Positions 3,401 through 51,226 of a stretch of 54,830 nt of DNA are shown here, in pieces. The translations under genes were made by a program, and so were the position numbers. The notes under the pieces were generated by a model, which saw nothing but the letters and a program-made list of their open reading frames with translations, was not told the DNA's origin and did not search any database. How positions within the stretch are numbered: the stretch's first letter is position 1; each line of letters opens with the position of its first letter. This stretch comes from a virus, in the IMG/VR virus record IMGVR_UViG_3300047175_000083, positions 1 through 54,830 of that record; one strand, written 5' to 3'.

Positions 3401-6400
3401 TTGCCCCACTGCTGGCGCGCGACCCGGTCTTGGTTGGCAAAGTCCTTGGCCGCGGCGCGGCCGCGCTCGCTTCCCAGAGCCATCGGCGCGACCCCGCGCT
3501 GGACCTCCTGGACGACCGATCCCAGGGTTTTGTTCGCTGCCTGCGTCATCGGCATGTCCCGAACCCGGGCGAGCAGCGGGCGCGCGGCGCCCTTGGCCTC
3601 GTCGGACAGACCCTTGGGCGGTTCCGGCGGGGGTTCGGATTCGCTGGGTCGGGACTCCGACAGATGCGCGAGGACTATGCCAGTGCCGCCGCTTCGGGAG
3701 GAAGATTGCGGAAGGCGTCCATCGGATCTTCGGGCGGCGAAGGAATCGGCGAGTCCAAAGACGTCTGTGGCGTGGGCGAGGGACGGGACAGACCCTTCGT
3801 CCGCGGCGTGGGCGAGGGCTTCATCAATGAACCGGGTGGCTTCTGGCGCTTCACGTTCAAATGCCTCCATCAAACCTACGCTGTGCCGTGCGGTGACGGC
3901 CTGGGCGAATAGCTCCGATTGAAACTTGGTCGGATCCGCGTGCAGTTTGGCGTACTTCGGATCCATCGGGTACTGCAGGAAATCCCGATTCTGCGGGTCG
4001 GCAGCTGCCAGCTTGTAGAGCTCTTTGGCCACCCGCCCAACTGGCTCGATCCGCCCGTCGGCGCCGATACGGACCGCCATGTCCGGATGGTCAGAATACA
4101 GCGTTCCCATCCAGTCGGCGATGTGCGCGTGCTCGTGCAGCATAAGCTGCGCGATGAAATTCGGGTGCGCCATCATGGCGTACGGGCTCATTTCGATCAG
4201 CGGCTTGCCGTCGTCGCCAAGACTGACCCGGGCGCCCAACTCCATCGACGGCTCAATGCGGTATCTGGTGGTGACGTGGGTGAACCCCAGATTCTTGCGG
4301 TTGAGCCAGTCCTTGATCGTCGACACGGATTTGTCGAGCTTGGCCTGCATGGCGGCGCGGCCTCGAGGGTCGGCGTAGGTCACTTGGGCGACCCGCTTCA
4401 TCTCGTCCTTGTCCTCGTCGGGCTCGGCCTTGCCCCAACCCTCGGGGGAGGATTCGCTCAACAGCGGCGGCTGGCCGGCGGCGGCGTCCTTTTTGACCTT
4501 CTCGCGCTCCTTGAGGGATTGCGGGGTCGGGTTTTCCAGACTGAACGGTTCCGATGCGGCTTTGCCGGCCTTGTGTTGCGCTTCGCGCACGCCATCCAAT
4601 ACGCGCGCGGTGTCGCGCATCGCCAGCCCCAGGCCGAAGTGCAACTGTGCGGGATTCGGTTTCAACGCCCCGCTTTCAATGCCCTCTTGCGCGAGCCGCA
4701 CCGCGTCGGCGAACGGTACGGTGTCGCCGTTAGAAAGCATGACGTCGCCCTTTTGCTCGGGCCGGGCCAGACCGCGCAATTCTTTTTCGGCGTCGTTGAC
4801 CGACAAACCATGAAGGTCAAACTTCGGGTGCGCTGGCTCTACAGGCTTTCCGGTCGCCGGTTCCTCTGGTGGCCGCCGCAAACCAGCCGAATCGAAGTAG
4901 CCGCCGCGGCCATCCGGGATCAGCTTTTCCTTGCGGCCGGCCTGGCTCTTTAATTTCGCCGGCCAAGCGTGCCGCTGCAGTTCGAGGTTGCCCTTTTGGG
5001 CTTCGTCCAGGACCATCTTGTCGAAGGCTTCCTTGCCCATGCCCGGGTACTGCTCGCGCAGTTTGTCGATGGCCACCGCCGCGCCCTGGTCGACGCGCGG
5101 CTCGACGGCGCGCATCGCATCGGCTACAGGCTTTCCGGCTTGTCCGGCTGCGGCCTCATTTGCGCGGTCGGGCCCGGCTGGTTGAACCTCGGATCCGGTT
5201 TGAGCACGCTCGCCGGATCCGCCGGCGCGAGCGCCCGGTTCATCCCGTACGGGGTTGAGCCGGTCCGAAACTGCGGCGCCTGTCTCAGTGTTGCCACGTA
5301 TTTCTGATTCTGCATCCGGGCGACCTGGTCCGGGCTCATCGCCTGGATTGCGTTCACCTGCTGCAATGGCGTCATGGGCATCATTGATCTCCTTGACCGC
5401 GCGCATAAACGCGCCGTGGTCGTTCTCGTGCTGGATCGCGGCGCGCTCGACCGCATCGGGGTCGCGCTCGTTCGCCTGGCGGATCGCTTCTGTGTGTTCG
5501 TGCATGAACTCGTCGGCCGATGCGCCACCGTGCTCGGCCGCGTGCGCGTGATCCTCCATCCTCCAGACGTCGTGCTGAATGTCCTCGTCGGTGCGGCCGC
5601 GGGTTTCGATCCCCAGGTTTTCGGCGTGCTCAAGCAGTTCGTTGCGCTGCTTCACCCGGGCTATGGAGTGCCAACGATCTTCCTGCTCGGGGATCGGATG
5701 CACGCTGTGCGGCTCGCGGATTTCCTGATTGATGAGCTCCCGGGCGAGCTCGTGCGAACCGCCGACGCCGGTGGCTTCGGCGTTTTCCACGTCTCGGTCG
5801 GACAGGTACTTCTCCTGCTGCATCCACCGAACCACGGAATCCATGTCGGCGCCGCCCTTGTGGAACAGCCGGCCGCGCCCCGGGCCGCCGATGAAAATGT
5901 GACCCTTGCCCGGCAGCGTCAAGGCAGTGTGCTTTTCCTCAAATCCCAGGTCCGACTTTTCGTCGGAGTGGATCCCGCCCAGGCCATCCATCAGCTTGCG
6001 GAAAAATGGGCTGTTGCTGACGGTTTTCTCGGGCTCGGCCTTGGGTTGCTTGTCCAGACCGTTTTTGGGCGCCTCGGCCTGGATGCGCGCGCGCTCTGAG
6101 CGGAATTGGTCGATGCGCCGTTGCTGTTCCTCGGGAGGCAGTTCGGCCCAGAATTTCCCGCGGTACGGGTCGCTGGCGTTGGCCGGGTCGTACGGGGAAA
6201 CGGCCATGCCTTCGGGCATTTTGTCTTTTGAGATGGTCGGTTCTTCGCCGGGCTGCAGCGGGTTGTCCCCGGTGTTGGGCCGGACTTTGGACCGACGCTC
6301 AAGCCCGCCCGCCGCACCTTGCATTTCGGTCGATTTGTCAACCGCCGGAGCCTGCATTTGCGCCGATTCGTCAACCACGGGCGACGGTGGGGTGGCGGGC

Positions 6401-7812
6401 GGCGGTGGTTCCTTCTCGACGGGGTGGAGCTTGTCGGCGCGCGCCAGAAGCGCCGCGGCTTCCTCGGGATCGGCGGTGTGCTGCGCCAGATCCCGTAGCT
6501 CGGTGGCCGCATTCTCCTGCTTGATGCGCTTTTCCTCGGCCGCCAAGCGTGTCTTGATGACCGCCTTGGCCTCGGGCGTCTGCGCCAGATCCAGCAGTTT
6601 TTCGAGTTCAACCTGCTTGTCGCTCTTGGGTGGGGGCGCCGGCTGCACTTCCTCTGGGGTTTCGGGCTCTATGCCTGGCGCCTCTGCCTTCGGGGCCGGC
6701 GCGGCCTTTACCTTTTCGGGCTCCACTTCCTGAACGTCAATGCCCCGTGCGGACGGCTTGGGCGGTTCCTCGAGCTCCGGATCGTGCTCGACAAAGTGCG
6801 GCGGCGGCGCGGCGTCGACGTGCTCCAGATCCGGAGCGCCGGCCTCGCCGACATCGATTCCAGTGGCCTGCGGTGGCGCTTGTGGCTCATCTGGTGAGCC
6901 CGGCCTTTGCCCCATGACCGCGCGCATCTGGTCGGCGGGGGTGCCGATCGTCTCGCGGGCCCGCTTGACGTCCTCCTTTTCGGCAATGCCCTGCGCGCGG
7001 CCCTGCTCCGCGAGGCGCGCGCCGGCCGCGCCGTGGTAGCCGAATCCCAAGCCGCTGCCAACCTCGACCATCAGCTGCGCCAGATCGGGCTTGACGTCCT
7101 GGTGATACTCGTCCGGGCTGGTGACGTTCTCCCCGGCGCGCCCGGCGGCGCTGGCCACGGGATTCAAGACCGCTCCGCTGGCCGCGCCGGCGACCTTCGA
7201 GGCGCCGGCACTCAGGCCCGCCCGGGTGGCCAGTTTCGCACCGATGGCGAACGGGGCCAGCTGCGCGGCGTTGTCGATGATGTAGTGCGGGATCCCGGCT
7301 TTGGCGATGTCCGTCAGGGAGTAGCCCTTCTGGATCATGTCGACGGCCATGTCGAGCGTAGGCGCCGCGCCCAGGCCGATCCCGACCTCCGGGACGACGG
7401 CGGTGGCCAGACCCGCGCCCAACCCGCCGATGACCTTGCCGGGGGTGTTTTCTTCCTCGTTGGCCTTGGTGGCGTAGTAGTCCCTGGACACCTTGATCTG
7501 CTCGTCCATCCCCCTGAAAATCGCGTCGCTTACGTCCTGGGGGTTGATCGGCTCGGAATTTTCCATTCCCTCGGCAGCCGCACCACTGAGCAGTGTGGAA
7601 CCCAGGAATTCGGCCACGCGCAGCGCCGCTGGCGCAATGGCCCCGCCGAACGTGCGTCCGGCCTGCTCGAGCATGGGAATGTCCCGGATCGGCGTGTCGT
7701 GCTTCAACGCCTCGGTGGGAATGTCGGTGCTGATGCCCGGCTGCGGCGGCGCGGCGCCCTGCTGCGCCAGCTGATCCTGTTTCAGGGACTCGACGGGAAT
7801 CGTCCAGCCCAT
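442..7812 (-). CDS. Giant late protein, 2456 aa, with two HExxH metallopeptidase motifs; putative internal or ejected virion protein
   Basis: The protein begins MGWTIPVESLK one base after the preceding stop. Residues 1-230 are Ala/Gly-rich and partly hydrophobic. Roughly 290-560 is Pro/Glu/Ala-rich and probably disordered, followed by long charged helical segments. HEHAH lies near residue 1224 and HELGH near residue 1744, each followed by a downstream acidic or hydrophobic segment as in zincin metallopeptidases. Near 2050-2100 is a hydrophobic stretch (SLAVFAMDVGLMYLGG). Very large multidomain proteins at the end of the structural operon, just before lysis genes, are typical of proteins packaged inside short-tailed phages and injected with DNA. 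That role is inference from size, position and motifs; I recognise no single full-length family. Confidence 0.75.
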   Translation of the reverse strand: MGWTIPVESLKQDQLAQQGAAPPQPGISTDIPTEALKHDTPIRDIPMLEQAGRTFGGAIAPAALRVAEFLGSTLLSGAAAEGMENSEPINPQDVSDAIFRGMDEQIKVSRDYYATKANEEENTPGKVIGGLGAGLATAVVPEVGIGLGAAPTLDMAVDMIQKGYSLTDIAKAGIPHYIIDNAAQLAPFAIGAKLATRAGLSAGASKVAGAASGAVLNPVASAAGRAGENVTSPDEYHQDVKPDLAQLMVEVGSGLGFGYHGAAGARLAEQGRAQGIAEKEDVKRARETIGTPADQMRAVMGQRPGSPDEPQAPPQATGIDVGEAGAPDLEHVDAAPPPHFVEHDPELEEPPKPSARGIDVQEVEPEKVKAAPAPKAEAPGIEPETPEEVQPAPPPKSDKQVELEKLLDLAQTPEAKAVIKTRLAAEEKRIKQENAATELRDLAQHTADPEEAAALLARADKLHPVEKEPPPPATPPSPVVDESAQMQAPAVDKSTEMQGAAGGLERRSKVRPNTGDNPLQPGEEPTISKDKMPEGMAVSPYDPANASDPYRGKFWAELPPEEQQRRIDQFRSERARIQAEAPKNGLDKQPKAEPEKTVSNSPFFRKLMDGLGGIHSDEKSDLGFEEKHTALTLPGKGHIFIGGPGRGRLFHKGGADMDSVVRWMQQEKYLSDRDVENAEATGVGGSHELARELINQEIREPHSVHPIPEQEDRWHSIARVKQRNELLEHAENLGIETRGRTDEDIQHDVWRMEDHAHAAEHGGASADEFMHEHTEAIRQANERDPDAVERAAIQHENDHGAFMRAVKEINDAHDAIAAGERNPGDEPGPGRPDAESEIRGNTETGAAVSDRLNPVRDEPGARAGGSGERAQTGSEVQPAGPDRANEAAAGQAGKPVADAMRAVEPRVDQGAAVAIDKLREQYPGMGKEAFDKMVLDEAQKGNLELQRHAWPAKLKSQAGRKEKLIPDGRGGYFDSAGLRRPPEEPATGKPVEPAHPKFDLHGLSVNDAEKELRGLARPEQKGDVMLSNGDTVPFADAVRLAQEGIESGALKPNPAQLHFGLGLAMRDTARVLDGVREAQHKAGKAASEPFSLENPTPQSLKEREKVKKDAAAGQPPLLSESSPEGWGKAEPDEDKDEMKRVAQVTYADPRGRAAMQAKLDKSVSTIKDWLNRKNLGFTHVTTRYRIEPSMELGARVSLGDDGKPLIEMSPYAMMAHPNFIAQLMLHEHAHIADWMGTLYSDHPDMAVRIGADGRIEPVGRVAKELYKLAAADPQNRDFLQYPMDPKYAKLHADPTKFQSELFAQAVTARHSVGLMEAFEREAPEATRFIDEALAHAADEGSVPSLAHATDVFGLADSFAARRSDGRLPQSSSRSGGTGIVLAHLSESRPSESEPPPEPPKGLSDEAKGAARPLLARVRDMPMTQAANKTLGSVVQEVQRGVAPMALGSERGRAAAKDFANQDRVARQQWGKFHDIIRANYDAADRKRMFDAGEEENQMRLNGETDPKRGLGRLSPEERDTMKVLHDYGENLLQRAKAAGMVDEDAGVPYWVPHMAAMIGADGQVAQVPRGPGKGDGINAGKIEGTNLRTSAESLMQRKHQTIEEAEAAGKKAFGPDFKMVHDILTMPLAMGRLERAIAGRELINRIQEMGKTTGENLVDIHGNSETHFTINHPAFTTYKWKKDSMPVKEAHDQQLWDGLSKVAEALGVTHQRLANLKGRAWGLSYQGGNRVQTKFAGPETVLTHELGHQIDHKYGLIKEMQGTPGVAKELRALADARYASKDPDEVPQHYKKYVREGSEKMANLVHAYVHAPELMDRIAPKAKAKFEAFLDKHPEIGEPLRAVKPGVELGVRSQEIPYRFPQKVPLYVSKEFEGPLRAVLNDGPNGKAYEAAMALKTIAVESIMNSPAIHLSVVLGRTFPAAPGRMLTGRIFMDGSRVVNDPRNTEMREFVQNGMVPIGKFGDRQDITGIMQHVPDDPRQQTWGQAPITKAVAGAIRPFSESASLKTAQGLYKAADFWHNTLLWNQVAKIQAGLAVHSRDQFIKQGFDRQTAVRMAAHLANRYAGAIPNESMSSMARKFLNLEEFSRSFTTGNLGAVKDVLTGLPRDVQSQIARDMGPEARDKAVAAMRRKSLAVFAMDVGLMYLGGSTLQDYFKHKLNPNAPEGIPGAIAGIATGDMHRVHAAMAGYERRAAAEYSRIKDNPMRILNPFAVARNVTPMADNEPGKKDRILVGYGDDGTARYYRFSFGKVGEDFEGWMTHAHDMMVKKESTLIRPTIEAATNNQGFNGSQRPVWDEKAVDENGLPLGVAKIGGQIALHYLQQQLPTDQLSAAKNLMTGKSKFSWQDMDALHAIGPMVGLQFSKGFPGGPAFGEMQEDRKEHSAELTKIAPDLRAALKAGDTVEANKLMDQARMTPAERKWFYRLNQQGASKNAVRSFEKMATPEQQANFQRLQAGQ

Positions 7813-15200: not shown

Positions 15201-15392
15201 GTCATCCTGGTAGTAGATCGTGATGGGGTCGACGGCGATCTGCTGTGTCGTGGCCTCGTCAAAGCCTTTCCAGCTTTCCAGATTCCCGGAGAGCAGGCGC
15301 GGGTTGTTGGCCAGTTCGGCCATTTCATTGCCGAGCAGGCGCCTCGCGATACGGGGAACCTCGCCCTTGAAAATTTCTACATTGACGGCCAT
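12204..15392 (-). CDS. Large virion protein with LamG/concanavalin-like domain (1062 aa)
   Basis: The ATG at 15392 (MAVNVEIFKGEVPRIARRLL) overlaps the TAA of the glycosyltransferase gene; the longer open frame upstream is out-of-frame noise from that gene. The N terminus resembles a conserved short-tailed-phage protein type that starts with a GEIPRxxPRLL-like motif and an LxSGxLxxWKG segment. Residues about 76-270 form a laminin-G/concanavalin-like jelly roll (VKLLMHFDN, TGDFTVECSLQW, WHAFCFMRKSG, YADELRVSDIAQY). The rest is beta-rich with FN3-like and propeller-like stretches. It probably forms part of the tail tube end or a carbohydrate-binding surface. The LamG call is from motif pattern only. 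Confidence 0.7.
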   Translation of the reverse strand: MAVNVEIFKGEVPRIARRLLGNEMAELANNPRLLSGNLESWKGFDEATTQQIAVDPITIYYQDDQLWLTWGGASAVKLLMHFDNVGSTDFIDVFGHTVIDQSSCGSGFQQENTTVLYGAGSLQGANFNLNLEITDPGTDFNFGTGDFTVECSLQWTNDIHVDIFSFSCYPNPSFSFDFQSGVGFSFVEGAQTVAYTTDNFNVWHAFCFMRKSGTSYVFVDGVVIGSFADTNDYTPTHLPDILSVEYPTFGTFYADELRVSDIAQYPVTGYTPATSAFTDVPGSSSSVVEIDVAKASIAGDDSVRTYFCGLDAPRFTDLGLASGLVDGSGNPVTGSSTIASGALPDGGPFPIYSRKLGVPNPTVAISEPTLVPAAPGANLVTITETFDGAVDWNLVSTPGVGLAQIIGTGGDPGASLNTRAISGNLPYGWKTFAIDNTQDTTVTANFAFQSNAYDAEQDCTLVFLCNLDTTVSGSLVNVQITPSGVAWNFQAINNGAYGSVLSSGTIASGSIPTWQVNADAAFTGPFLPNVFYTAKLTITPQTAGTCQINLVISHGTTTVLSITSGTNVPNSGPGFGFGTTVPGGFSQPYWSEVNFDNVVISGTGPVSSTASDEATTYLYTLVNDLGEESGPCPAMVTADGTGTITRPAGQGVTVSLPGTLAATGVDITYFEGGTSYIPTTQIAPNTGIPSPSMNLYRAVTGSTGSAFLLVVANLAFSGGSATTYTDSIPDSSLSEVLESTNWYPPPTDMLGILALPNEIYAGFTKNQLCLSEQGIPHAWPIVYRLTFDYDIVGIGNIDNTVIACTKKFPWLCSGNTPDAYSQTEASYPYACASKRSIQFLENVGVVFATFEGLIAISGPGSELLLTRDLFSKKEWLALNPASMIATVNDDRYFCFYDATSIGGVKGGFYLDLHPQSPYPGIPSVVSGKISLDFHATCRYNDPLSDILYLVIDAQPTPLGITDQTIVSFDTEPTNPLPYLWHSKQFYVPYPTTFQMARITADSYENTTLNLFADGVQYASIPIASQEEFTIPLQQCLKYFEFELVGTDTITRAQFVEDADEFT

Positions 15393-16051
15393 TACGGATT
15401 CCAGACCTCTGCGCGCGCGTTGGCCTTGCCTGCCATCCACTTCAACGCTATCTTGCCGCCGGCCAAATACGCCTGGGCAGGCGTGCGCTTGCGCTCCCCT
15501 TGCGGGTAGCGGATCCAGTTGTACCCAACGATAGGCACATGCACGGCGCGGCCCTTGGAGGCGACCGCGGCACGCATGAGCCAATCGATAGGGGCGCCGG
15601 TCGCTTTGTGAGCGTCCATGACTTCCTGGCCGACGAGCGCCGTGCGAAAAAACGCCAGGTGATGCGTGGCCATGCTCTGCTCGGCGATGTTCGCGTAGGT
15701 CGGCGTCGTGTGCGGCATCCGGTCGACGAGGTTGTGTTTTCTGCCGTAGACCGTGGTGATGCGCTCGCAGGTGAACGCCAGATCCGCGCCGGTTTCGTTT
15801 ACGCAACGCTGCAGCACGGCGATCGAATCGTTTTCGACCAAATCATCGTCATCGACAAATGCGACGAAGTCGGCCAGCAGGCGTGCCTCCCAGATTCGCT
15901 CGTTCCATCCGGTCAGGTTGTCGTTGCTGGTCGCGTCCACGATCACGTGGAAATCCACGCCGGCGGGCAGCTGCGAGCGCACCGAGGCCTCGGCCGCGGC
16001 CTGGGTGTCGCGGGTGCCCTGCGTGACCATCACGACCGCAAACTTGGGCAT
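15392..16051 (-). CDS. GT-A fold glycosyltransferase, family 2-like (219 aa)
   Basis: Starts MPKFAVVMVTQGTRDTQ at 16051, three bases after the preceding stop. A Rossmann-like N terminus leads to FVAFVDDDDLVEND (residues 62-75), where the DDDD run matches the nucleotide-sugar/metal-binding DxD region of GT-A enzymes. Downstream are HHLAFFRTALV and a GAPIDWLMRAAV acceptor-side segment, as in GT2 proteins. It would transfer a sugar from a nucleotide donor, in the cytoplasm. Its place inside the structural operon is unusual. Candidate substrates are a virion protein, host lipopolysaccharide or phage DNA; nothing here decides between them. Confidence 0.7.
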   Translation of the reverse strand: MPKFAVVMVTQGTRDTQAAAEASVRSQLPAGVDFHVIVDATSNDNLTGWNERIWEARLLADFVAFVDDDDLVENDSIAVLQRCVNETGADLAFTCERITTVYGRKHNLVDRMPHTTPTYANIAEQSMATHHLAFFRTALVGQEVMDAHKATGAPIDWLMRAAVASKGRAVHVPIVGYNWIRYPQGERKRTPAQAYLAGGKIALKWMAGKANARAEVWNP

Positions 16052-16053
16052 GG

Positions 16054-16791
16054 CTACCTCGAAATGAACGGCCGCGGGGTCGCCCGCACGCTGGCCTGCT
16101 GAAAGCCCTTGTCCTTCCACGTGCGGGCAAGACCGATGCCTTCCCAGAATTTGCCGCGCCACTCCATCGATTTTTGGCCGTTGCCCCACGATTCGTTTTC
16201 CATCGAATACAGGAACTCAAGCGCGCCGGCCTCGATGTACGTGTTGAACTTGTTGAGCAGATCGTTCGGGATGACCTGGCTCGCAAGGGACGGCTGGCAG
16301 ATGAGGCTGACCTTGGCCCCATAGGCGTAATTTGGGGTTGGGTAAAAGACGATCATCCCTTCTGGCAAATAGCTGTACCAGTTTGGAATGTCCGTTTTCA
16401 TGTTCGGATCGTAGTAGGCCTGATCGGTCGGCCGCAGGTTGACCCACGTGGTGTTCTGCTGCTGAATTTCCGCTGCGGCCACGCCGATGACCTCAAGGTT
16501 CGTGTCGCTGCCGAAGTTGTACTCCGGCTGGTTCACCGTGAGGGTCGCCTGGGCGATCTGCCGGCGCAGGTACATCGAGCGCGCGCAGAATTCCCGGGCC
16601 GCGCGCATGTATGCCTGCTGCACGATGGGCACCGGCGCTTCCTTGATAAGCGCCGCGACGTCCAGGCACACAAGGCCCACCGCGGTCGAGGCAGGCGTGA
16701 TCGGACCGCCCGTGATGACGCCGGCGAAGCTCTGCGCGTCGATGCTGGTCGACGGCGGCCCGGGGTTGAGGGAAAAAGTCCCGCTAGACAT
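16054..16791 (-). CDS. Putative tail adaptor/tube-like structural protein (245 aa)
   Basis: Starts MSSGTFSLNPGPPSTSIDAQ, overlapping the previous gene by eight bases. The central part has the helix-rich region ICAALIKEAP-type segment (VCLDVAALIKEAPVPIVQQA), then AYMRAAREFCARS and a beta section ending in IEAGALEFLYSMENESW. The layout of N-terminal membership helices plus a beta barrel resembles the adaptor or tail-tube-A proteins that follow the capsid gene in short-tailed phages. This assignment rests on position and outline, with no diagnostic motif. Confidence 0.6.
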   Translation of the reverse strand: MSSGTFSLNPGPPSTSIDAQSFAGVITGGPITPASTAVGLVCLDVAALIKEAPVPIVQQAYMRAAREFCARSMYLRRQIAQATLTVNQPEYNFGSDTNLEVIGVAAAEIQQQNTTWVNLRPTDQAYYDPNMKTDIPNWYSYLPEGMIVFYPTPNYAYGAKVSLICQPSLASQVIPNDLLNKFNTYIEAGALEFLYSMENESWGNGQKSMEWRGKFWEGIGLARTWKDKGFQQASVRATPRPFISR

Positions 16792-18311: not shown

Positions 18312-19271
18312 TTACGGGTGGGCGTACGACGTGCCGATGTACGTTGCGCCGATGACCTGGAACCCGAACACCATCAGGCCACGGATGAGGTAGCCGAAAT
18401 CGGAAGGGTTGTCGATCATCTGCGCTTCGACGATCTGCGCGGCGAAAGCTAGGCCGGCCGAGTGTCCGAACATGATCGACCAGGAGGTCGCAATGCCGGA
18501 ACCCGGGGTGTTTTTCGCGATGTTCCGCGACTGGTAGATCGAGAAGCGATCCACCACACCGACCTTGCCGTTGCGCAGGATCGAAACACCGTCGCCCGCG
18601 AGGGAGGCGATGCGCAGATCGGAACGCTTGACCAGGTTGATGTACCAGGGAGGCGCGACGAGCCAGCGGCCCTCGTCCGAGACGTTGTTCTCGTCGAGGC
18701 ACTGGCCCATCCACGTGATGTGATCGATCACGTTTTCCTGCGGGGACACCGCGCCAGTGGGAACCAGCTGGATCGGGGACGTCAGGGAACCGAGGTTGAT
18801 GTTCGCCGAATCCGCGCCGGCCGTGGTCCCCGTGTTGGTCGAATCGACCTGCGTGGGGATCGTGGTCAGCATGTCCGCATCGGCCGCGATTTTCAGCTGG
18901 ATCGAGCCGTCGTTCGCGAAGATGTCGCTCAGGTCGACGTCCGACTGGCGGATGTCGACGATGTTCAGCCCGACGTTGAAGCTGTACGCCTGGTTGATGT
19001 TGAGCGTGACCGAATTGCGGGAGGGATACTGCGGCGAAAGACCGGCACCGATGACGTACGTGGACACGGTGATGTCCGGCACGGTACGGATGACGACCTG
19101 GGCACCGTAGCCGGAGATGTCGCCCTCGTAATCCGTGGTGGCGATTTCACCGAAAACGGTGGTCTTGTAGAACTTCTCGACCAACTTGCCCGAATACACG
19201 ACCGGGTTGAAGTTGACGGTGCCGGTGGGATCGTACTGCGGATACCCACCAGTGCGCGCTGGACCGCCCAT
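18312..19271 (-). CDS. Major capsid protein (319 aa)
   Basis: Starts MGGPARTGGYPQYDPTGTVN after AAAGGAGC. The sequence SGKLVEKFYKTTVFGEIATTDYEG is typical of the N-terminal arm of HK97-fold coat proteins in short-tailed phages. Near the end is the segment LRNGKVGVVDRFSIYQSRN (residues 232-250), the usual A-domain strand pattern, followed by HSAGLAFAAQIVEAQ. The length fits a coat protein without a fused scaffold, and a coiled-coil scaffold candidate lies directly upstream. It forms the head shell. Confidence 0.85.
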   Translation of the reverse strand: MGGPARTGGYPQYDPTGTVNFNPVVYSGKLVEKFYKTTVFGEIATTDYEGDISGYGAQVVIRTVPDITVSTYVIGAGLSPQYPSRNSVTLNINQAYSFNVGLNIVDIRQSDVDLSDIFANDGSIQLKIAADADMLTTIPTQVDSTNTGTTAGADSANINLGSLTSPIQLVPTGAVSPQENVIDHITWMGQCLDENNVSDEGRWLVAPPWYINLVKRSDLRIASLAGDGVSILRNGKVGVVDRFSIYQSRNIAKNTPGSGIATSWSIMFGHSAGLAFAAQIVEAQMIDNPSDFGYLIRGLMVFGFQVIGATYIGTSYAHP

Positions 19272-19315
19272 CTGAATGCTCCTTTGGGTTGTTCAGGGCG
19301 ACGCTGGCATGTGGG

Positions 19316-20320
19316 CTACGTCGAGCCCCGTCGAGCCATCGTCGCTTGAACCCGCGCGTCGAACACCGCTGCCTCCTGGGCCGTCATCTTCCCCAGCTTC
19401 TTTGCTTTGAACCCCGCCCGCATTTCGGGCTCGCTCATTGGCACGCTGGACATATCGCCGACCGCGCCTGGGGGCGCGCGCGGGGATTCCTGGGCCGTGC
19501 CCGGCGCCGCCGAAGCGGTGACAGGTGGCTCGGCAGGAACCCGAACGGGTTGCAGGCTTTGCATGAACGTGCGCAGCATGGTGAGGACACCCTCTGCGTC
19601 GCCCGCGGCCTGGAACTGGTCGAGGATTTTCTGGCGTGACAATCCGGACGTCGAATCACGACCGTCCAGATACACCCGCCAACGTGCGTCCTGGTTCACC
19701 GCCCGCCATTCCGGCATGCCCTCGTCGAGCACTTGGAAAAAAGCGCGCTGTCGCTCGGCCTTGGTCGAGGCTTTTTGCTTTTCCTCACGCTCAAGGATTG
19801 GCTTGACCTCGGCCGCGATGCGAGCGGCGACGGTTTCGTCGGCAATACGTTGGGCAGAGCGAACGATCGTCAAAGCGTTGTCCTCGCCGATGCGTTCCAA
19901 TTCCTCGGCAGAGAAGTGCTTTGTCAGATCGATCGCGGGCTGCGCGGCGGGGTGGCTGCGCACGAGCTCGGCGTTCTTTGCCTGCAGCTGCTCAATTTCC
20001 AGTTGAAGCGCGGCGATCTGCGAGTCCTTGGTACGGAGGTGGTCGCGACGATGTCCTTCGACAATGTTGCACCGGGCCTTCCAGTATTTCGGATCGTTGT
20101 CGCGCGCCTCGTCTGGCGCTTTGAGCAGCATTTCGGGCGTGAATTCCGAGGCTGCGAGCGGGGCTGAAACAACCGGGGAAGCCGTTGCCGGCGGGTCCGC
20201 GGGGGGAGTTTCGGTGGGTGGTGCGTTTTGGGCTTCCAGAAGCTCCAGCGCGCGCGCGTGCTGCGCGACAATCTGCCGGGGGATCTTGGGGCCTCGATCG
20301 ACGACTTGGGTTTCGTTCAC
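19316..20320 (-). CDS. Putative scaffolding protein (334 aa)
   Basis: The GTG at 20320 has AAGGA six bases upstream (20326-20330); another GTG at 20344 lacks a site. Residues 20-60 are Pro/Ala-rich and 80-125 are coiled coil (RTKDSQIAALQLEIEQLQAK). A long charged helical region (ILEREEKQKASTKAERQRAF) follows, and the C terminus has a basic helix. Position immediately upstream of the coat gene, acidic/helical character and length all match phage scaffolds, which fill the procapsid and then leave. Assigned from these features, not from a family motif. Confidence 0.7.
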   Translation of the reverse strand: MNETQVVDRGPKIPRQIVAQHARALELLEAQNAPPTETPPADPPATASPVVSAPLAASEFTPEMLLKAPDEARDNDPKYWKARCNIVEGHRRDHLRTKDSQIAALQLEIEQLQAKNAELVRSHPAAQPAIDLTKHFSAEELERIGEDNALTIVRSAQRIADETVAARIAAEVKPILEREEKQKASTKAERQRAFFQVLDEGMPEWRAVNQDARWRVYLDGRDSTSGLSRQKILDQFQAAGDAEGVLTMLRTFMQSLQPVRVPAEPPVTASAAPGTAQESPRAPPGAVGDMSSVPMSEPEMRAGFKAKKLGKMTAQEAAVFDARVQATMARRGST

Positions 20321-20378
20321 GGGGTTCCTTGAAAGCCGATCCACTGGTCAATGAATGCTGGCTGGGTCCAGGACTCGG

Positions 20379-20725: not shown

Positions 20726-21523
20726 CTAATCGCCGGAAAAGAGCAATTCGGAGGCCGCTTGGACCGCAATGAGGTTGTTTTGGACCCGCTTCAATTCGTC
20801 TCGAGCGTGGGCCGCTTCGGCGCGCAGTTGGGCCAATTCGTTCCGGGAAACGGCCAATTCGTTTCGGATTTGCTCGATCTGGAGCGCGAGCATGGCGCGC
20901 GCGGCCTCCATGTGGTGACTGACCTCGCCAAGCTGCTTGTCCAGGCGCGCGGCCGATTGCTGCGGGTCAAACTGCAGCTTGCCCACGAGCTCAAGCCGGA
21001 TGCGCTCGCGCTCGGCCGCTTCGGCCGCCAGTCGGGCGCGCTCGGCCTCGGCGGCGGCGCGCGCGGCGGCAGCGATTTCCCGGGCCCGCTGTTCCTCGTC
21101 CTCGATGAGCTTGAGCCGGGCGGCGCGGCGGGCCGCGGCCTCCTGGTGCTCGCGCAGCCGGCGCGCCTGCCGGGCGGCGCGGATCGCCTCGTCGCGGGTC
21201 TGGATCGCCTCGGCCGATTCACGAATGACGTCCGCGGCGATGTCCGGCGCTTCGATCCGGATGGGCTCAACTTCGGGCGTCTCGGCCAGCCGGTCAAAAT
21301 TGCCGATTCCCGGCGAAACGCCGACCTTCGGGACAACGGCCTGGGGCTGGGGGTCGACCGCAGGCGCAGGCTCGGGGTCGTTGCCCCATTTGATGCGCAC
21401 ATTGTGGTGCCAGCGCGCGGTGTACCGCGGGTCGTTCGCCAGCGATACCGTTGACGTGGCCGCGGTCGCCGCCAGCAGGCCGCCGATGGGAGTCTGGCCT
21501 ATTGCGTCGGCGCCCAGAAGCAT
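20726..21523 (-). CDS. Alanine/arginine-rich coiled-coil protein (265 aa)
   Basis: The first 25 residues (MLLGADAIGQTPIGGLLAAT) are mildly hydrophobic. Residues 100-260 form one long helix with almost continuous Ala/Arg/Glu heptads (AAAARAAAEAERARLAAEAA and later LALQIEQIRNELAVSRNELA). No enzyme motif is present. It sits one base from the serine-protease-like gene and may be a fibre-associated shaft, chaperone or scaffold. The extreme Ala/Arg composition makes homology hard to judge by eye. Confidence 0.65.
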   Translation of the reverse strand: MLLGADAIGQTPIGGLLAATAATSTVSLANDPRYTARWHHNVRIKWGNDPEPAPAVDPQPQAVVPKVGVSPGIGNFDRLAETPEVEPIRIEAPDIAADVIRESAEAIQTRDEAIRAARQARRLREHQEAAARRAARLKLIEDEEQRAREIAAAARAAAEAERARLAAEAAERERIRLELVGKLQFDPQQSAARLDKQLGEVSHHMEAARAMLALQIEQIRNELAVSRNELAQLRAEAAHARDELKRVQNNLIAVQAASELLFSGD

Positions 21524-21524
21524 G

Positions 21525-22769
21525 TCAGTAGGTCGTGAAACTCGAAAGCGAGAGTTGGGTCAGAGAATACCCGCCGCCAAGCGAGGCCATCACCGCATTG
21601 ACCGCGGCGACGTTGTTGGCGACGTTCGGAAGCCCCGCCGTGGTGTGGCAGGTACCGATGAGCACCGGCGTCGTCCCGGTCGGCGGGATTGTAAACACCG
21701 GCGAACCGCTGTCGCCCGAATACACGCCGACGACGCCGCTCTTGGGCGATTTGCTCCAGGCCTGGCGATTTGACTCGACGCAGGCGATGTACGTCGCATC
21801 GTTGGACGAATTACCCCAGGTCGGCAAATCCAGCAGCAGCACCTCCTGGTTCTGGTTGAAGTGCAGCAGCGGGACGTACGTGAAATTCTGGTAGATCTGG
21901 TCCACCCCGGCCGCGGGCAGGTAGCATGCCCCGCTGGGACTAAAGGTGGCTGCCGGAAACACCTGCATCGGCGTGCAGTTGGCCAGCGCCGACGAGAGCA
22001 GAGCCACGCACAGATCGGTGCTGCCTACCTCCTGACGGCTGCTGACGGTGGCGCTGTGGATCGCCGAGTCCGTCCCCAGGAAGTACAGCGTGTCGCCCGC
22101 GGTCAGCGCGACGTGGTTGGCGCACAGCACGTGGCGCGGTGAAATGAGCACGCCGTTGAACTGTGCGGTGTACGAACCCCCGGAGAGTCGGCCGATGGGA
22201 ATGCCGCTCAGGTCCACCAGCGACTTGCACCAGAGCGAGGAGTTGCGAACCGCGGCACTGTGAAGGTTGTTGCTGGAAAAGGCGTCCACCGTGCCGGCGT
22301 TGCACGACAGTCCGACGAGCGCGGCGTCGACCGGATTGGTCACGGCGTACGCGAGCGACGCGCTGATGAAACTCTGAAAAACGGTCGACGTGCCGCTGGT
22401 GTTTCGCCCCACCGGATACTTGAGCAGGCTCGTGCCATACAAAGGGTCCGTGGCTTGCAGCACTGCGTCTCCGTCGGCCACCCAGACGGCCGGACCATCG
22501 TTGACGGCCACATTGCAGACGTGCGAATAGCCCGCGTGGGTTCCATCGGTGAGATTCACAAACGAGGGCGAGACGCCGCTCAGCGCCACCGTGAAAACGC
22601 TGTCGACCACCTGACCGATGGCGGTAAGCACATTCATGTCGCGCAACGTCGTCGCGGTGCCTCCACTGCCCGTCGTCGTGGTCGAGGGCAGCAGCGAGAA
22701 GGCATACTGCTCCTGCGCGTTGTACCCTCGGCACAGCGGGCCGCTCGCCGAGAACTTGATGTTTGTCAT
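21525..22769 (-). CDS. Virion-cassette protein with trypsin-like serine protease domain (414 aa)
   Basis: Starts MTNIKFSASGPLCRGYN, three bases after the tail fibre stop. The N-terminal half (1-190) is beta-rich. The C-terminal half carries an apparently intact chymotrypsin-fold triad: His219 in GVLISPRHVLCANHV, Asp252 in GSTDLCVALL and Ser354 in YSGDSGSPVF. The order and rough spacing match PA-clan peptidases. It could mature a fibre protein, act on host surface protein, or be a non-enzymatic chaperone-like relic. Trypsin-like domains are rare in phage particles. The residues are seen directly; the role is inferred from its place between the tail fibre and structural genes. Confidence 0.75.
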   Translation of the reverse strand: MTNIKFSASGPLCRGYNAQEQYAFSLLPSTTTTGSGGTATTLRDMNVLTAIGQVVDSVFTVALSGVSPSFVNLTDGTHAGYSHVCNVAVNDGPAVWVADGDAVLQATDPLYGTSLLKYPVGRNTSGTSTVFQSFISASLAYAVTNPVDAALVGLSCNAGTVDAFSSNNLHSAAVRNSSLWCKSLVDLSGIPIGRLSGGSYTAQFNGVLISPRHVLCANHVALTAGDTLYFLGTDSAIHSATVSSRQEVGSTDLCVALLSSALANCTPMQVFPAATFSPSGACYLPAAGVDQIYQNFTYVPLLHFNQNQEVLLLDLPTWGNSSNDATYIACVESNRQAWSKSPKSGVVGVYSGDSGSPVFTIPPTGTTPVLIGTCHTTAGLPNVANNVAAVNAVMASLGGGYSLTQLSLSSFTTY

Positions 22770-22772
22770 GGG

Positions 22773-24803
22773 TCAGCTTGACGTCGTCGTGGCGTCGAGC
22801 AAGAAGGTGGCGACCCAGTTGATCGTCGTCGACGAAAGACCAGTCACCTCGACGTCCAGCGATTGCTGCGCGCTATTCCCCGCTATCGTGATCGGAGGCG
22901 TGGCCACCCACGTCGTCGACCACTGCGTTGAACCGTTGCCCAGCGCTTTGTTCAGCGAGGACGAAACCGAGATGGCGCCTCCGTTGTTGACCGCCAGGAC
23001 GTCGTAGGTCCATTTGCCGCAGTTGGCCGAGCCGTTTTGCTTCGCCACGACGGTCAGCGTGCCCCCTATCGCCTGGCCCGGCCGCAGGACCAGGCGGTTG
23101 GAGTTCCCGAAGGCCTTGCTCGAATTGACCGCGGTTCCGGTGGTCGTGAGCACCACGTTGGCCGTGTTGCTGGTCGTCTGGATGCCGAGCGTCACGGATT
23201 GGAACTGCGTGTCTCCGACCGAAGCGATCTGGGCTTCGGAGATGGCCACCTCGCCCAGATTGAGCGGTGCGGCCGTGCCGCCGATCCCCACCCCGAGCTG
23301 GCCGCTCGAGTTTTCGTAGAGCGTCGAGTTCGGGCTGATGGCGGTAGCTGGGTTACTCGTGTTCTGGCTATTGGTAAAGGCCACCGTGACGGTGGTGCCC
23401 GATATGTTGGTGATCGTCCCGGGCAGGTAGCAGTTATTGTTGGCTATCGCCGAGACCTGCACGCCTGTTTCGAGCACAAAGGGCGCAGTCCCAATCGACG
23501 ACATGGCCAGCGTGACCGCGCCGGGGAACGTACCACCAACCGTGGTGAACGAAAATCCCTGAGACTGGTTGCCGGTGCCGGCGCCGTTGATCGAAGTCGA
23601 TGCCGAGCCGTACAGGAAATTGAAGAAGTTGCCGTTGCCAGCGCCGAGGCAAACCCCATAGGGTCCGTACACGCCCATATTGCCTTGCGTGTTAAGCGCC
23701 ATCGCCACGGCCGCGCTGACGGTGGTGCCCGCCCCGACAGCCAAAGACTGGTCGCCAGCGGCGATACCTTGGTTAAACGAGAGCGACCCGAACCCGTACG
23801 ATTTTGCGCTCAATCCACCGGCGTACGACTGATCCCCCGCCGCGTTCGCTCGCACGCCGACCGCGGTTGCGCTGACGCCCGTTGCGGTGAGACCGATGCC
23901 CAGCCCCACCGCTTGCGAGCCAGTGACGGCGTTCGAGAATCCCTGGTTCACGCTCTCGGGCGCGTCGGACGTCGCGCGCAGCGTTGTGAGTTCGAGAAGC
24001 ACCCAACTCGTGCTCGAAGCCTGCCACTGGAATCGCGCGCTAAGGATCGGGGCGGTCGGTATGTTGTTCGAGAACGGGTAGGTCGACCCGCTGTTCGTCG
24101 CTAGGACCGAGCCGTTGACAGTGATCGACGTCAGTACGGACGGGGTGGAAATGAACTGGACCGTCAGCGGTTGACCGTCCACGTAGCCGTTTTGCAACGT
24201 GCCCGTGAACGAAGTGACGCCCGCGCCGATGGTGGCGCGAACAATGCTCGACGTGCAGGGGATGGTGCCGGCCACAGCCCCGCTGCCCGCGAACGAGGCG
24301 GATTGAGACGAGGTCCACGGAAAAAAAACGACAGCCCCGCCAGCGGTGCCGGTGAACTGGACGATGGCCGGCGTGTCGATGGCGCTGGCGAGCTCGCCCA
24401 GGGTCGCGGCCAGTGCCTCAAGCGAGGCGAGGTTTCCAGTGCGCGGGATCCAGTCGCCGACGATGTTGCCGCTAGCGTCCTTGAGCACTGCGCGCTCGGC
24501 CGGGATCGAAACGAAAACGTCCTTGGTTCCCGTGGCGAAGTTCACCAAACTGCCGCCATTGGAGCTCGCCAGAACCGTGTCGCGCGTGAGGCCCGTCGAG
24601 CCGTTGAACGTCCCAGAGCCGAATTCCCAATTCGGGCCCGCGTTTTGGTCCGCGATGACGTACATCACGTCGGACACGGGCGCCGAAGGAAAACCCGAAG
24701 CGAACGACTGATAGCCCCCTGGCGGGGAATTGGCCAGCACGATCGCGCCGGTCCCCGTCGAGGTCGTGGTATCGCGGACGCGATCGGCTATGGCCGCGGT
24801 CAC
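22773..24803 (-). CDS. Tail fibre with YadA-like head repeats (676 aa)
   Basis: GTG start at 24803 overlaps the portal TGA (GTGA). The N terminus (IADRVRDTTTSTGTGAIVLA, then SFASGFPSAP) is the standard virion-anchor module of short-tailed phage fibres. Residues 290-390 contain repeated AxGxxA/SxAxG units (GSQAVGLGIGLTATGVSATA, GDQSYAGGLS, GDQSLAVGAG), as in the left-handed beta roll of YadA-type trimeric adhesins. The C-terminal 170 residues are Thr/Ser-rich beta structure. It should be a trimeric receptor-binding fibre, and probably sets host range with the neighbouring protease-like gene. Confidence 0.8.
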   Translation of the reverse strand: MTAAIADRVRDTTTSTGTGAIVLANSPPGGYQSFASGFPSAPVSDVMYVIADQNAGPNWEFGSGTFNGSTGLTRDTVLASSNGGSLVNFATGTKDVFVSIPAERAVLKDASGNIVGDWIPRTGNLASLEALAATLGELASAIDTPAIVQFTGTAGGAVVFFPWTSSQSASFAGSGAVAGTIPCTSSIVRATIGAGVTSFTGTLQNGYVDGQPLTVQFISTPSVLTSITVNGSVLATNSGSTYPFSNNIPTAPILSARFQWQASSTSWVLLELTTLRATSDAPESVNQGFSNAVTGSQAVGLGIGLTATGVSATAVGVRANAAGDQSYAGGLSAKSYGFGSLSFNQGIAAGDQSLAVGAGTTVSAAVAMALNTQGNMGVYGPYGVCLGAGNGNFFNFLYGSASTSINGAGTGNQSQGFSFTTVGGTFPGAVTLAMSSIGTAPFVLETGVQVSAIANNNCYLPGTITNISGTTVTVAFTNSQNTSNPATAISPNSTLYENSSGQLGVGIGGTAAPLNLGEVAISEAQIASVGDTQFQSVTLGIQTTSNTANVVLTTTGTAVNSSKAFGNSNRLVLRPGQAIGGTLTVVAKQNGSANCGKWTYDVLAVNNGGAISVSSSLNKALGNGSTQWSTTWVATPPITIAGNSAQQSLDVEVTGLSSTTINWVATFLLDATTTSS

Positions 24804-27115
24804 GCCGGCGCCTTCGCGGGCTGGGCGGGTTGCGGGTTCGCCCCTTCACCCTCGGCGTGCTCGGCGGCGATGATGTTGCCCTTGGCGTCGTACTTGAAAG
24901 CGACGCGCTTGGGTTTTGATGCAACCTGCTCGGCCATTTTCGCCCCCAGCGTGGCGCCGTGGATGGACTCGCGGCTCCTTGCGGTGATGTTGGCCACATC
25001 GATCTTGTTCTGGCGGTCGCGGTCGTTCTGGTCGCCGATGAATTGCTGCTGTGCCGCGGCCTGGGCCTGCTGCTGGCGCAGTGCCTCGGCCTGTTGCGCG
25101 CTTTGCTGATCCTGCATTTTCTGAACGTCTTTTTCCGGCGGCACGACATCGTCGTCGGCGCCATCCATCGAGCGCAACGCTTCCTTGAGCAGCTTGGAGT
25201 ACCCGACCAGCCCGGTGATCTGCATGGCCATCGGGTTCGAGCCCACGATCTGCAGGGCTTGCATGCGGCCTTGCCGTTGCGCTTCCTTGACCAGGATGGC
25301 AGCTGCCCCGCGCGCCACGATCTGCGCGTCGCCCTTGACCGTGTCGTCCTTGCCCCAGATCATTTCGTACTCGTAGGTCATCTGCAGGCACGGTTCGATC
25401 GCATACAGATCGACGTTGGAGACGGCGCGGCGCAAGCCCTTGGCGGCGTTGTTCATCAGCATGGACAGGCCCGCGTACGTGTCCGCGGCCCCGCCGATCT
25501 GCTGGTCGTTGCCGTACGTGTACCGTGGAATGCCGGTATCGTCGTCGCAACGAAGGTCGTACTTTTCGATGATCGTTTGAAGCTCGGCCGCGTTCGACTC
25601 GGCCTGGAAAAATCCCACGCCGGGGTTCACGCCCTGGGTGGGGTCGGATTTGAGTTGCCACACGCGCCACGGGAAAATGTCGACGGAGGACTCGCCGTCG
25701 GCAAGCCGGTCGGTGTGGACCCAGACCATCGGGCCTGCGGCCATGCCCATGTTGTCGGCCAGGGCCGAGGCCGCAGCGTTGCACATTTTCTGGCTCGTTT
25801 CGGCGAGCTCGCACACCGAGGTTCCCCAGAAGGAGCCCGGCCGAGCGGAGTAGCACGCCTTCCAAAATGGCCGGCGCTTCATCGGGTCCGGGTTCACGCG
25901 GCACATGATGACGTAGGGCCCGATGATCTGGGCCTCGACCTCGTAGTCCTGCACCGGGTCCAGTTCCTCGAGTCCGTCAATGCCCCAGGACATGAGCTTC
26001 CACCCAGGCACCGAGCCCCAAAACCACAGGCAATCGATGATGCCCCAGGGGGACAGGAAGGTATACATCGTTTCGTTCTGGAGGCGCTGGCGTTCGGCCT
26101 CGGTCCAGAGCCACGCCTCAAGGTGGCCATTGGCGTAGACACGCAGGCACTCGCGGATCTGGTCCTCGCGAAAGCCCGGGAGCCCGATGCAATCGAATAG
26201 CTGCTCGCGCCAGTAACGGATGCGAACGACCAAATCGCCCTTCTGGCAATCGGTGGCATAGGGTGCAGGGAACACGTCGAACGGGTCGATGCGCTTGTAG
26301 ACCATCTGCGATTCGTTCTTGACCCCGACCTTCCAGCCCGGGAGCCATTCGAGCGTGTGCCGGCGCTCGTAGATCGGACCACAGAGGATCGCGGCCTTGT
26401 AGACCGAAAAATCCTCGATGAACTCGTCCATCGCCTTGTAGTACCCGCCGGCCTCGAGAATTTCCTCGATGCGGTCGCTCATGCGGTCGGCGCAGGACTG
26501 AGCGAGTTTGGATGCGCGCTTCAATACGTCGTCGTGCATCTGGTTGTGGATTTCCCACGCCATCTCGCGAAATTCCTCGTGGCTCATCAGCAGCTTGGTC
26601 TGCTGCTGCATCTCCTGCATCGCCTGGGTCGCTTTCTCCGTGGCCTTGTCGAGCAGGGCCTTGGTGAATTCGATCGGCATTTTTGGCAAGGGGGACGGTT
26701 CGAGCGACCAGGCCCGATCGCCCACGGGCAGCAGAATCTCGCGCATCCACGCCGAGCACGCGCGCGTTTTCGTCTCGGTGAGCGGGATCCACACGAAATT
26801 GGAGCCGCCAAGGCTTTGCATCTGCGCGAGCTCGGCCTGGGAATACTGGTTGCACTTGGCCCGAAGGCACTGGAGCAATTCAAGCTGGATCTTTTCCTTG
26901 AAGATCTTGTTTCGCTGCCAGCACTGGCGGATATGCCCGGCCAGCACGCTCTCGGTCTGCAGGCTCGAAAAGACGTTCTGCGACCCGTTGTTGTTGATGT
27001 CGGGATCGTTGGATTTGTTGGGGACCTTGCTCTTGTCCTTGGAGAACACGACCAGCGGCGCGACCTGCAGCCCCGTGCTCTGTCCCCCGTCCCCGGTGTA
27101 GCCGGCGCCGCTCAT
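24800..27115 (-). CDS. Portal protein (771 aa)
   Basis: Directly follows the large terminase gene (overlapping it at 27115) and precedes the fibre. Long helices at 55-130 and 170-230, the aromatic-rich clip/stem region (GSVPGWKLMSWGIDGLEELD, WKACYSARPGSFWGTSVCE) and the C-terminal Gln/Ala-rich barrel (SAQQAEALRQQQAQAAAQQQ) match the large portals of short-tailed phages. It would form the dodecameric ring at one vertex through which DNA is packaged and ejected. Length is at the upper end for the group. No nuclease or capsid domain is fused. Confidence 0.85.
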   Translation of the reverse strand: MSGAGYTGDGGQSTGLQVAPLVVFSKDKSKVPNKSNDPDINNNGSQNVFSSLQTESVLAGHIRQCWQRNKIFKEKIQLELLQCLRAKCNQYSQAELAQMQSLGGSNFVWIPLTETKTRACSAWMREILLPVGDRAWSLEPSPLPKMPIEFTKALLDKATEKATQAMQEMQQQTKLLMSHEEFREMAWEIHNQMHDDVLKRASKLAQSCADRMSDRIEEILEAGGYYKAMDEFIEDFSVYKAAILCGPIYERRHTLEWLPGWKVGVKNESQMVYKRIDPFDVFPAPYATDCQKGDLVVRIRYWREQLFDCIGLPGFREDQIRECLRVYANGHLEAWLWTEAERQRLQNETMYTFLSPWGIIDCLWFWGSVPGWKLMSWGIDGLEELDPVQDYEVEAQIIGPYVIMCRVNPDPMKRRPFWKACYSARPGSFWGTSVCELAETSQKMCNAAASALADNMGMAAGPMVWVHTDRLADGESSVDIFPWRVWQLKSDPTQGVNPGVGFFQAESNAAELQTIIEKYDLRCDDDTGIPRYTYGNDQQIGGAADTYAGLSMLMNNAAKGLRRAVSNVDLYAIEPCLQMTYEYEMIWGKDDTVKGDAQIVARGAAAILVKEAQRQGRMQALQIVGSNPMAMQITGLVGYSKLLKEALRSMDGADDDVVPPEKDVQKMQDQQSAQQAEALRQQQAQAAAQQQFIGDQNDRDRQNKIDVANITARSRESIHGATLGAKMAEQVASKPKRVAFKYDAKGNIIAAEHAEGEGANPQPAQPAKAPA

Positions 27116-29173: not shown

Positions 29174-29365
29174 TTACTTATCGACTGGAAAGGGCGCGGG
29201 TCGGATCCCGTCGCGGGCTTCCGGGGCCCTTTTCTGCGGATTGTCCAGGGCCGGGTTGCGCGGCCAGCCCAGGGACCGGGCGTCGACCCCGACCGCGGCC
29301 CATCGGTCGATGTGCTGCCGGATCAGGGGCGAGTTGGGCAGCGGGTCGCCGCGTGGGTGGGCCAT
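29174..29365 (-). CDS. Short conserved-looking protein (63 aa)
   Basis: The ATG at 29365 overlaps the preceding TGA (TGATG), the strongest evidence that this short frame is translated. The sequence begins MAHPRGDPLPNSPLIRQHID and is basic and proline-rich. It resembles the tiny basic proteins seen before terminase genes, without a nameable family. An 80-base gap with GC hairpins separates it from the next gene. Confidence 0.5.
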   Translation of the reverse strand: MAHPRGDPLPNSPLIRQHIDRWAAVGVDARSLGWPRNPALDNPQKRAPEARDGIRPAPFPVDK

Positions 29366-29784
29366 CACGCTTTGCGCAGGAGCTCGACAAACGACGGGCT
29401 CACGATCATCTTTTCGGGCCGGCGGATACGGACGCGCGCGGTGGCGGGCCGCGGCGGCTCGAAGTAGGGCTTGACGCGGGCGGCCCAACGCAGTTCCTCG
29501 CTGGTCACGATCTTCCTGTCCAGAAACGCGCGGGGGTACTCGGCCCGGCTCGTATACATGGTGAATCGGTCGAGCGTGCCGATCTGGCCGTTGCGCACGA
29601 TCCCCTCGGCCATGGCGTCGGCCAGCGAATCGTCCGCGATCAACAGGCCGGCGCAGGTAAACACGCCATTTTGGTCTGGCACCCACAGACCGTCGGGACG
29701 CACGCGCATGATCGAGCTCGCCTTGACCAACGCCGGCGCTGCGCAGGCCGCAAGGATCGCACCCATGAATCCGCGGCGGTTCAT
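29365..29784 (-). CDS. Twin-arginine-signal protein with capsid-like segment (139 aa)
   Basis: The ATG at 29784 overlaps the previous TGA (ATGA). The first 24 residues, MNRRGFMGAILAACAAPALV, are a Tat-type signal: RR followed by xFM, an alanine-rich hydrophobic core and an AxA-like end near residue 22. Residues 64-80 read RNGQIGTLDRFTMYTSR, closely paralleling RNGKVGVVDRFSIYQSR in this phage's coat protein (233-249). It could be an exported or membrane-anchored phage protein, or a virion protein with an unusual N terminus. Both possibilities are open; the signal and the shared segment are directly visible. Confidence 0.7.
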   Translation of the reverse strand: MNRRGFMGAILAACAAPALVKASSIMRVRPDGLWVPDQNGVFTCAGLLIADDSLADAMAEGIVRNGQIGTLDRFTMYTSRAEYPRAFLDRKIVTSEELRWAARVKPYFEPPRPATARVRIRRPEKMIVSPSFVELLRKA

Positions 29785-30062
29785 TCTCTGCGCTCCGGTT
29801 CCTGGAATGCCCATCCGAATTTCAAAGACCCGGGTTTCATGGTCATGATCTGCAGGACCGTCAAAGTGAACGCCTCGGTCTGACCGTGGCAAGTCAACAC
29901 GTAGTGCTGGTCGTTGCGGACGTCCGGGATCATCGACATGCGCTCAACCGGCTGGCGGCACTTGGCGCACCACGGGTACATGCCGAATTCGCAGCCGGGC
30001 GCAACGTCGTGGAGCCAGAGCGCCTTGGCCAGCGACCTGCAGATGCGGTCAATCGTCATCAT
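29781..30062 (-). CDS. Small protein with CxxC motif (93 aa)
   Basis: Starts MMTIDRICRSLAKALWLHD at the overlap with the Tat-signal gene before it, and ends in an ATGA overlap with the one after. It contains WCAKCRQPVERM and, 25 residues on, YVLTCHG, a plausible zinc-binding set. It lies between two proteins with Tat-like signals, so the three are probably co-translated. It has no signal of its own. Confidence 0.6.
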   Translation of the reverse strand: MMTIDRICRSLAKALWLHDVAPGCEFGMYPWCAKCRQPVERMSMIPDVRNDQHYVLTCHGQTEAFTLTVLQIMTMKPGSLKFGWAFQEPERRE

Positions 30063-51217: not shown

Positions 51218-51226
51218 GAGCCCACC

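Follow-up and report, generated by a model that had tools for sequence, protein, structure and literature searches.

The protease gene and its cassette

The window, as the whole stretch of DNA analysed is called here, comprises the 54,830 nucleotides of the IMG/VR virus record IMGVR_UViG_3300047175_000083 (54.8 kb); PHROG models recognise its terminase, portal and capsid proteins. An earlier note, made from the sequence alone, had placed an intact trypsin-like serine protease domain in a tail-fibre cassette. An open reading frame for 414 residues does lie at the positions it gave, with the correction that the gene is on the minus strand (Table 1). The protein has two parts, a separate beta-rich domain formed by the first ∼135 residues and then a catalytic domain spanning residues ∼146 to 414. 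His219 lies in ISPRHVLCANH, Asp252 in STDLCVALL and Ser354 in SGDSGSP, and the H-D-S order claimed for these residues, in motifs of the chymotrypsin type, is borne out by the sequence and by the family alignment described below.

Table 1. Coordinates of the protease gene, its parts and the surrounding cassette in the window.
Feature	Position	Strand	Basis
Portal, one border of the variable cassette	24800..27115	-	phrog_332, 4.7e-52
Tail-fibre-like protein, 676 aa	22773..24803	-	N-terminal ∼120 aa match annotated phage tail-fibre N-termini
Protease gene	21525..22769	-	414 aa; family HMM match, 152 bits
N-terminal beta-rich domain	22368..22706	-	Residues 22-134; no confident fold match of its own
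Predicted chymotrypsin-fold domain	21579..22334	-	Residues 146-397; AlphaFold2 model, Foldseek, VIA-align Z 17.0
Codon of His219, putative general base (GVLISPRHVLCANH)	22113..22115	-	Invariant in 58/58, but within the retrieval pattern
Codon of Asp252 (STDLCVALL)	22014..22016	-	Invariant in 58/58; outside the retrieval pattern
Codon of Ser354, putative nucleophile (GDSGSP)	21708..21710	-	Invariant in 58/58; outside the retrieval pattern
Coiled-coil protein closing the cassette	20726..21523	-	C-terminal 26 aa conserved in L147
Scaffold-like protein and major capsid protein, other cassette border	18312..20344	-	phrog_267, 1.8e-37; MCP 87-88% identical in L146/L147

Between the portal gene and the genes for scaffold and major capsid protein (MCP) the cassette contains a fibre, the protease, the coiled-coil protein and a small ORF. 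The fibre gene is downstream of the portal gene and directly upstream of the protease gene, and its resemblance to annotated tail fibres confirms the association of protease and fibre that had been described. The window portal is related to that of Rhizobium phage RHph_TM3_14A (31%) and also to those of Roseobacter, Pelagibacter and HMO-2011-type podoviruses. Two relatives, L146 and L147, have an MCP 87–88%, a portal 76% and a scaffold protein 41% identical to those of the window, and between portal and MCP they carry different fibre-like genes and no protease; the N-terminal attachment domain of the window fibre is kept in L147 (45%). About 0.7 kb separates the portal gene from the scaffold gene, or the gene in the scaffold position, in L152 and in RHph_TM3_14A, and the cassette is absent in this Rhizobium phage.

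Other features of the window were also recorded. The last ∼26 residues of the coiled-coil protein recur at the C-terminus of an 816-residue protein of L147 that differs elsewhere, and by eye a similar ending is seen in L146; this tail may serve attachment or assembly in the variable cassette. Near the terminase gene, an ORF at 29365-29892 (-) has a Tat/lipoprotein-like export signal (MNRRGFMGAILAACAAPALVKA). The ORF of 2456 residues at 442-7812 (-), possibly a large internal virion protein, matches nothing in PHROG or NCBIfam at E<=0.001. A DNA methyltransferase (phrog_1008) is located at 39294-40403 (-) and a RecE-like exonuclease (phrog_10477) at 50944-52179 (+).

A sequence family of its own

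No Pfam, PHROG or NCBIfam model matches the 414-residue protein. The Pfam Trypsin profile PF00089 found neither this protein nor anything else in the virus record, and gave only weak matches (E up to 1, best 7.3e-5) to 5 of 58 family sequences; the Pfam Peptidase S74 profile is likewise unmatched in the window protein. An HMM of the other family members nevertheless recognises the window protein with 152 bits (E 3.8e-46), to be compared with 10.5 bits for the best of 1,000 shuffled controls, and matched no other ORF of the window.

A degenerate DNA pattern written by hand to cover G..(VIL)(S/T)PRH(VIL)(VIL)xAxH was used to retrieve relatives from IMG/VR. At least 119 stretches matched and, among the matches listed, about 105 carry this motif within an open reading frame, and in most of these an obvious GDSG follows 108–154 residues downstream. 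This one scan gives at least about 88 distinct family members in uncultured viruses. Among 50,697 GenBank phage records there is a single relative, in MW202510.1 from an uncultured podovirus, and further family members used as queries returned the same record or nothing. A pattern search for relatives with the window protein, P0002 or their two-row alignment, whose patterns require closer relatives, gave none, and plasmid searches gave no members. Literature searches found no description of the family, most subscription papers lying outside their reach. The statement that such proteases are uncommon in phage particles is thus correct for sequenced phage records and fails for uncultured viruses.

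Conservation was examined in 58 sequences at <80% identity, the window protein included, drawn from the matches listed. The catalytic His, Asp and Ser are invariant in this set (58/58); since the His is within the retrieval pattern its invariance is partly by construction, while the Asp and Ser lie outside the pattern. R175, W180, F230, G352, D353, G355 and P357 are among the further positions that hardly vary. Around the catalytic Ser, Gly is found at -2 in 54/58 and Asp at -1 in 56/58, and conservation of the protease domain extends to the C-terminus, LGGGYSLTQLSLSSFTTY. Two relatives (L045 and L049) keep the Ser and have the GDSG loop changed to GSSA or GNSA, and a further one (L022, 3-1241) has two family protease domains in tandem in a single open frame. 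Neither a conserved substrate nor a conserved cleavage motif emerged.

Counting back from the Ser, the position at the base of the S1 pocket (S-6) is Gly348 in the window protein; in the family it is most commonly Ser, Asn, Thr or Gly, and Asp in only 4/58. With Gly in the window protein and Asp rare among its relatives, the Arg/Lys specificity of trypsin is not expected from the sequence. The protease domain does appear intact, as had been claimed, and the description of it as trypsin-like is better replaced by chymotrypsin-fold, given that the S1 base lacks the trypsin-defining Asp.

Predicted structure

Structure prediction, proposed in the earlier note, returned a double beta-barrel of the chymotrypsin type. 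The AlphaFold2 model made with the 58-row alignment has a mean pLDDT of 80.8, with most ten-residue blocks in 131-414 above 90 and exceptions in loops around 271-340. Foldseek against the PDB gave 137 matches at E<=0.001, which were to chymotrypsin-fold proteases and among which was the HGF beta chain. The best match was bovine alpha-chymotrypsin (4q2k_B; VIA-align Z 17.0 over 186 residues at 3.2 A, model residues 146-397). In the model, His219 comes after strand 213-217, and Asp252 and Ser354 lie ahead of strands 253-258 and 357-360, respectively; chymotrypsin shows the same placement of triad residues relative to strands. From the chymotrypsin match and the order of motifs and strands, the three residues would be close together in a catalytic geometry. 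A chymotrypsin fold is strongly supported by the model, and with the sequence motifs added the predicted catalytic competence of the window protease is well supported.

A search of viral structures gave one strong match, an uncharacterised Caudovirales protein. The window protein used as a phmmer query against PDB sequences found nothing relevant; a profile search matched Ig-like adhesins via the N-terminal part and, weakly and around the His motif, chymotrypsinogen C and plasminogen. On its own the N-terminal domain folded poorly, with a pLDDT of 66, and no PDB entry matched it at E<=0.001. Big_2 Ig-like domains were matched in the scanned stretch of 9/58 relatives, and in several relatives they occupy the place of this N-terminal beta domain.

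Fusions and neighbours in other viruses

In other viruses the protease domain is found fused to structural proteins: to a T4-gp15-like tail-sheath stabiliser in L113 (Pfam 1.1e-64), to a baseplate wedge protein in L034, to a tail protein in L015 and to adhesin-like proteins with FN3/DUF285 or G8/Big_2 domains in L007, L053 and L048. The 120 same-strand neighbours of family genes include matches to tail fibre, minor tail and tail spike families, to head decoration, portal, head-tail adaptor and neck families and, in 7/120, to the Major tropism determinant N-terminal domain (Mtd_N); this tally is descriptive and not an enrichment test, being made without a matched random-gene control. In L078 and its near-copies L088, L089 and L103 the gene adjoining the protease resembles residues 507-665 of the window fibre, and in MW202510.1 the family gene adjoins a short beta-helix protein. 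Glycosyltransferase Pfam families were also seen among the neighbours in other viruses, and the window itself has a GT-A glycosyltransferase-like ORF with an FVDDDD region among its virion genes (15392-16189, -).

Together the fusions and neighbours moderately support a virion location for the family protease. A fusion to the sheath stabiliser would put the domain at the neck and not at the receptor-binding tip, and general surface display fits this better than receptor unmasking does.

Cellular homologues

A similar pattern found 24 stretches in 84,980 bacterial and archaeal genomes, most of them from Verrucomicrobiota, Planctomycetota, Kiritimatiellae or Patescibacteria. Profile searches were positive for 7/145 genomes of Verrucomicrobiota, 2/149 of Planctomycetota, 1/145 of Patescibacteria and 1/150 of Campylobacterota, one positive in each sample being the genome picked as its centre. 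By a home-made heuristic rule, signal-like N-termini were called for 12 of 19 cellular proteins and for 2 of 47 viral ones (Fisher p 7e-7), a contrast that fits extracellular action with the virion substituting for a secretion signal. A quickly built tree intermixes viral and cellular members, well-supported branches forcing at least 4 changes; the window protein forms a long branch whose placement is unsure. Some cellular rows may be prophages or binning errors. A copy almost identical to that of viral L017 occurs in L139, a Verrucomicrobiales MAG contig, which is probably a prophage or a viral contig in the bin.

Comparison with known systems

With chymotrypsin and PF00089 Trypsin (MEROPS S1, clan PA) the family shares the predicted fold, the H-D-S order and motifs, the oxyanion Gly and the GDSG(N/S)P loop. 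Unlike PF00089 it has its own SPRH motif, a conserved R/N/W block before the barrel, a conserved LGGGYxLTxxDLSxF tail and, in most members, no Asp at the S1 base. A single profile-profile comparison gave a remote alignment (E 7e-5, probability 62) to secreted HtrA/DegP-type proteases from bacterial genomes, pairing the catalytic His and Ser blocks and offsetting the Asp motif by about two residues; unlike these proteases, the window protein has no visible C-terminal PDZ region and ends with the family tail. The GenBank relative, hypothetical protein UOF78081.1 of an uncultured Manatee Spring podovirus (MW202510.1), is 25.5% identical over 53% with the triad conserved. Its gene ends an internal-virion and structural gene module beside a beta-helix fibre-like gene, a virion-gene neighbourhood like that in the window, although UOF78081.1 is unannotated and its fibre neighbour is unrelated.

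Phage Ig-like decoration domains (Big_2, FN3) are known to be grafted onto unrelated virion proteins. The protease domain resembles them in this, and Big_2 often precedes it, but the family would be an enzyme and not a binding module. Like tailspike depolymerases and other virion-associated enzymes (PMC5380687), the window protein would be an enzyme within a host-range module; those enzymes are mostly carbohydrate-active, unlike the chymotrypsin-fold protease here. A peptidase of Bacillus phage PhiNIT1 digests the poly-gamma-glutamate capsule (PMC5380687). Rhizobiaceae phages P10VF and phiM9 have an annotated trypsin-like serine protease (PMC10783043), which was not retrieved by tblastn with four family members against the phage collection.

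Interpretation

The best explanation, with a probability of about 0.55, is that the gene product is an active serine protease of chymotrypsin fold, displayed by the phage particle as one component of the tail-fibre cassette, an exchangeable module for host interaction, and that it cleaves a host-exposed protein. It is preferred because of the fold, the triad conserved in 58/58, the fusions to virion proteins, the structural-gene neighbours, the export-signal contrast and the variability of the cassette; from these we infer that the protein is built into the particle of this phage, that it is active and what kind of protein it cuts. The protease would be anchored or held at a distance by its N-terminal beta domain, and the C-terminal domain would cut a protein exposed on the host or in its surroundings. 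Surface-layer, fimbrial, matrix and receptor-masking proteins are candidates, and their cleavage would give the neighbouring fibre access to its receptor. Such an enzyme would be a protein-cutting counterpart of the tailspike polysaccharide depolymerases. The simplest account would be a protease that acts outside cells, exported by bacteria and displayed on the particle by phages.

The earlier note had listed several roles. Cleavage of host surface protein is the one favoured, while processing of the fibre or of the protease itself during assembly, by cuts in its own chain, the adjacent fibre or the coiled-coil protein, is possible and forms the main rival, although we think it rather unlikely. 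The S74 endosialidase-type chaperone is an analogue in purpose. The gene adjoins a fibre here, a gene sharing the C-terminal region of that fibre in L078 and the beta-helix protein in MW202510, and the fusions to structural proteins would also suit such a role. However, the partners (sheath stabiliser, baseplate wedge, adhesins and Mtd-type fibres) are mutually unrelated and the putatively secreted bacterial homologues have no fibre at all, and a common dedicated virion substrate is therefore hard to see. Somewhat less probable again is a non-virion protease that works inside the infected cell or is released at lysis, for defence or receptor removal or for nutrient release. Such a protease would agree with the stand-alone gene of the window, which is not a fusion, but this gene lies within a structural gene run, and elsewhere the family is found again and again joined to virion proteins or next to them.

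Inactive chymotrypsin-fold chains do exist, the HGF beta chain among the fold matches being an example, and the domain could in principle be a non-catalytic module for binding or decoration. With the triad and the flanking Gly and Asp so highly conserved, this role, also on the note's list, is very improbable. Capsid maturation was considered for the gene position between portal and scaffold/MCP, which is all that speaks for a prohead protease. It was rejected on the protease-free cassettes of L146 and L147 with their near-identical MCP: the protease varies with the fibre cassette and not with the capsid. A prohead protease is strongly disfavoured also by the fusion of other members to tail proteins or their predicted secretion by bacteria, by the predicted chymotrypsin fold and by the lack of any match of the window protein to Pfam, PHROG or NCBIfam models of prohead protease families (S78, S14, S49, S21-like).

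For the family as a whole, the preferred reading of a displayed protease becomes that of a large unnamed family which uncultured phages attach to varied tail and surface proteins, probably in order to cut proteins of the host exterior. In its broadest form, to which we give even odds, these would be widespread virion-displayed chymotrypsin-fold proteases, a promiscuous decoration enzyme grafted by uncultured phages onto tail-sheath, baseplate, fibre and head proteins against host protein barriers, repeatedly exchanged with secreted PVC and CPR enzymes and nearly absent from cultivated phages. Most of the enzymes with which virions are known to breach the host surface cut sugars or peptidoglycan. 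If a common family of displayed proteases exists, protein barriers would join the targets of virion enzymes and one entry route would be explained for phages of poorly cultivated bacteria, while a large set of unannotated phage proteins would gain a name.
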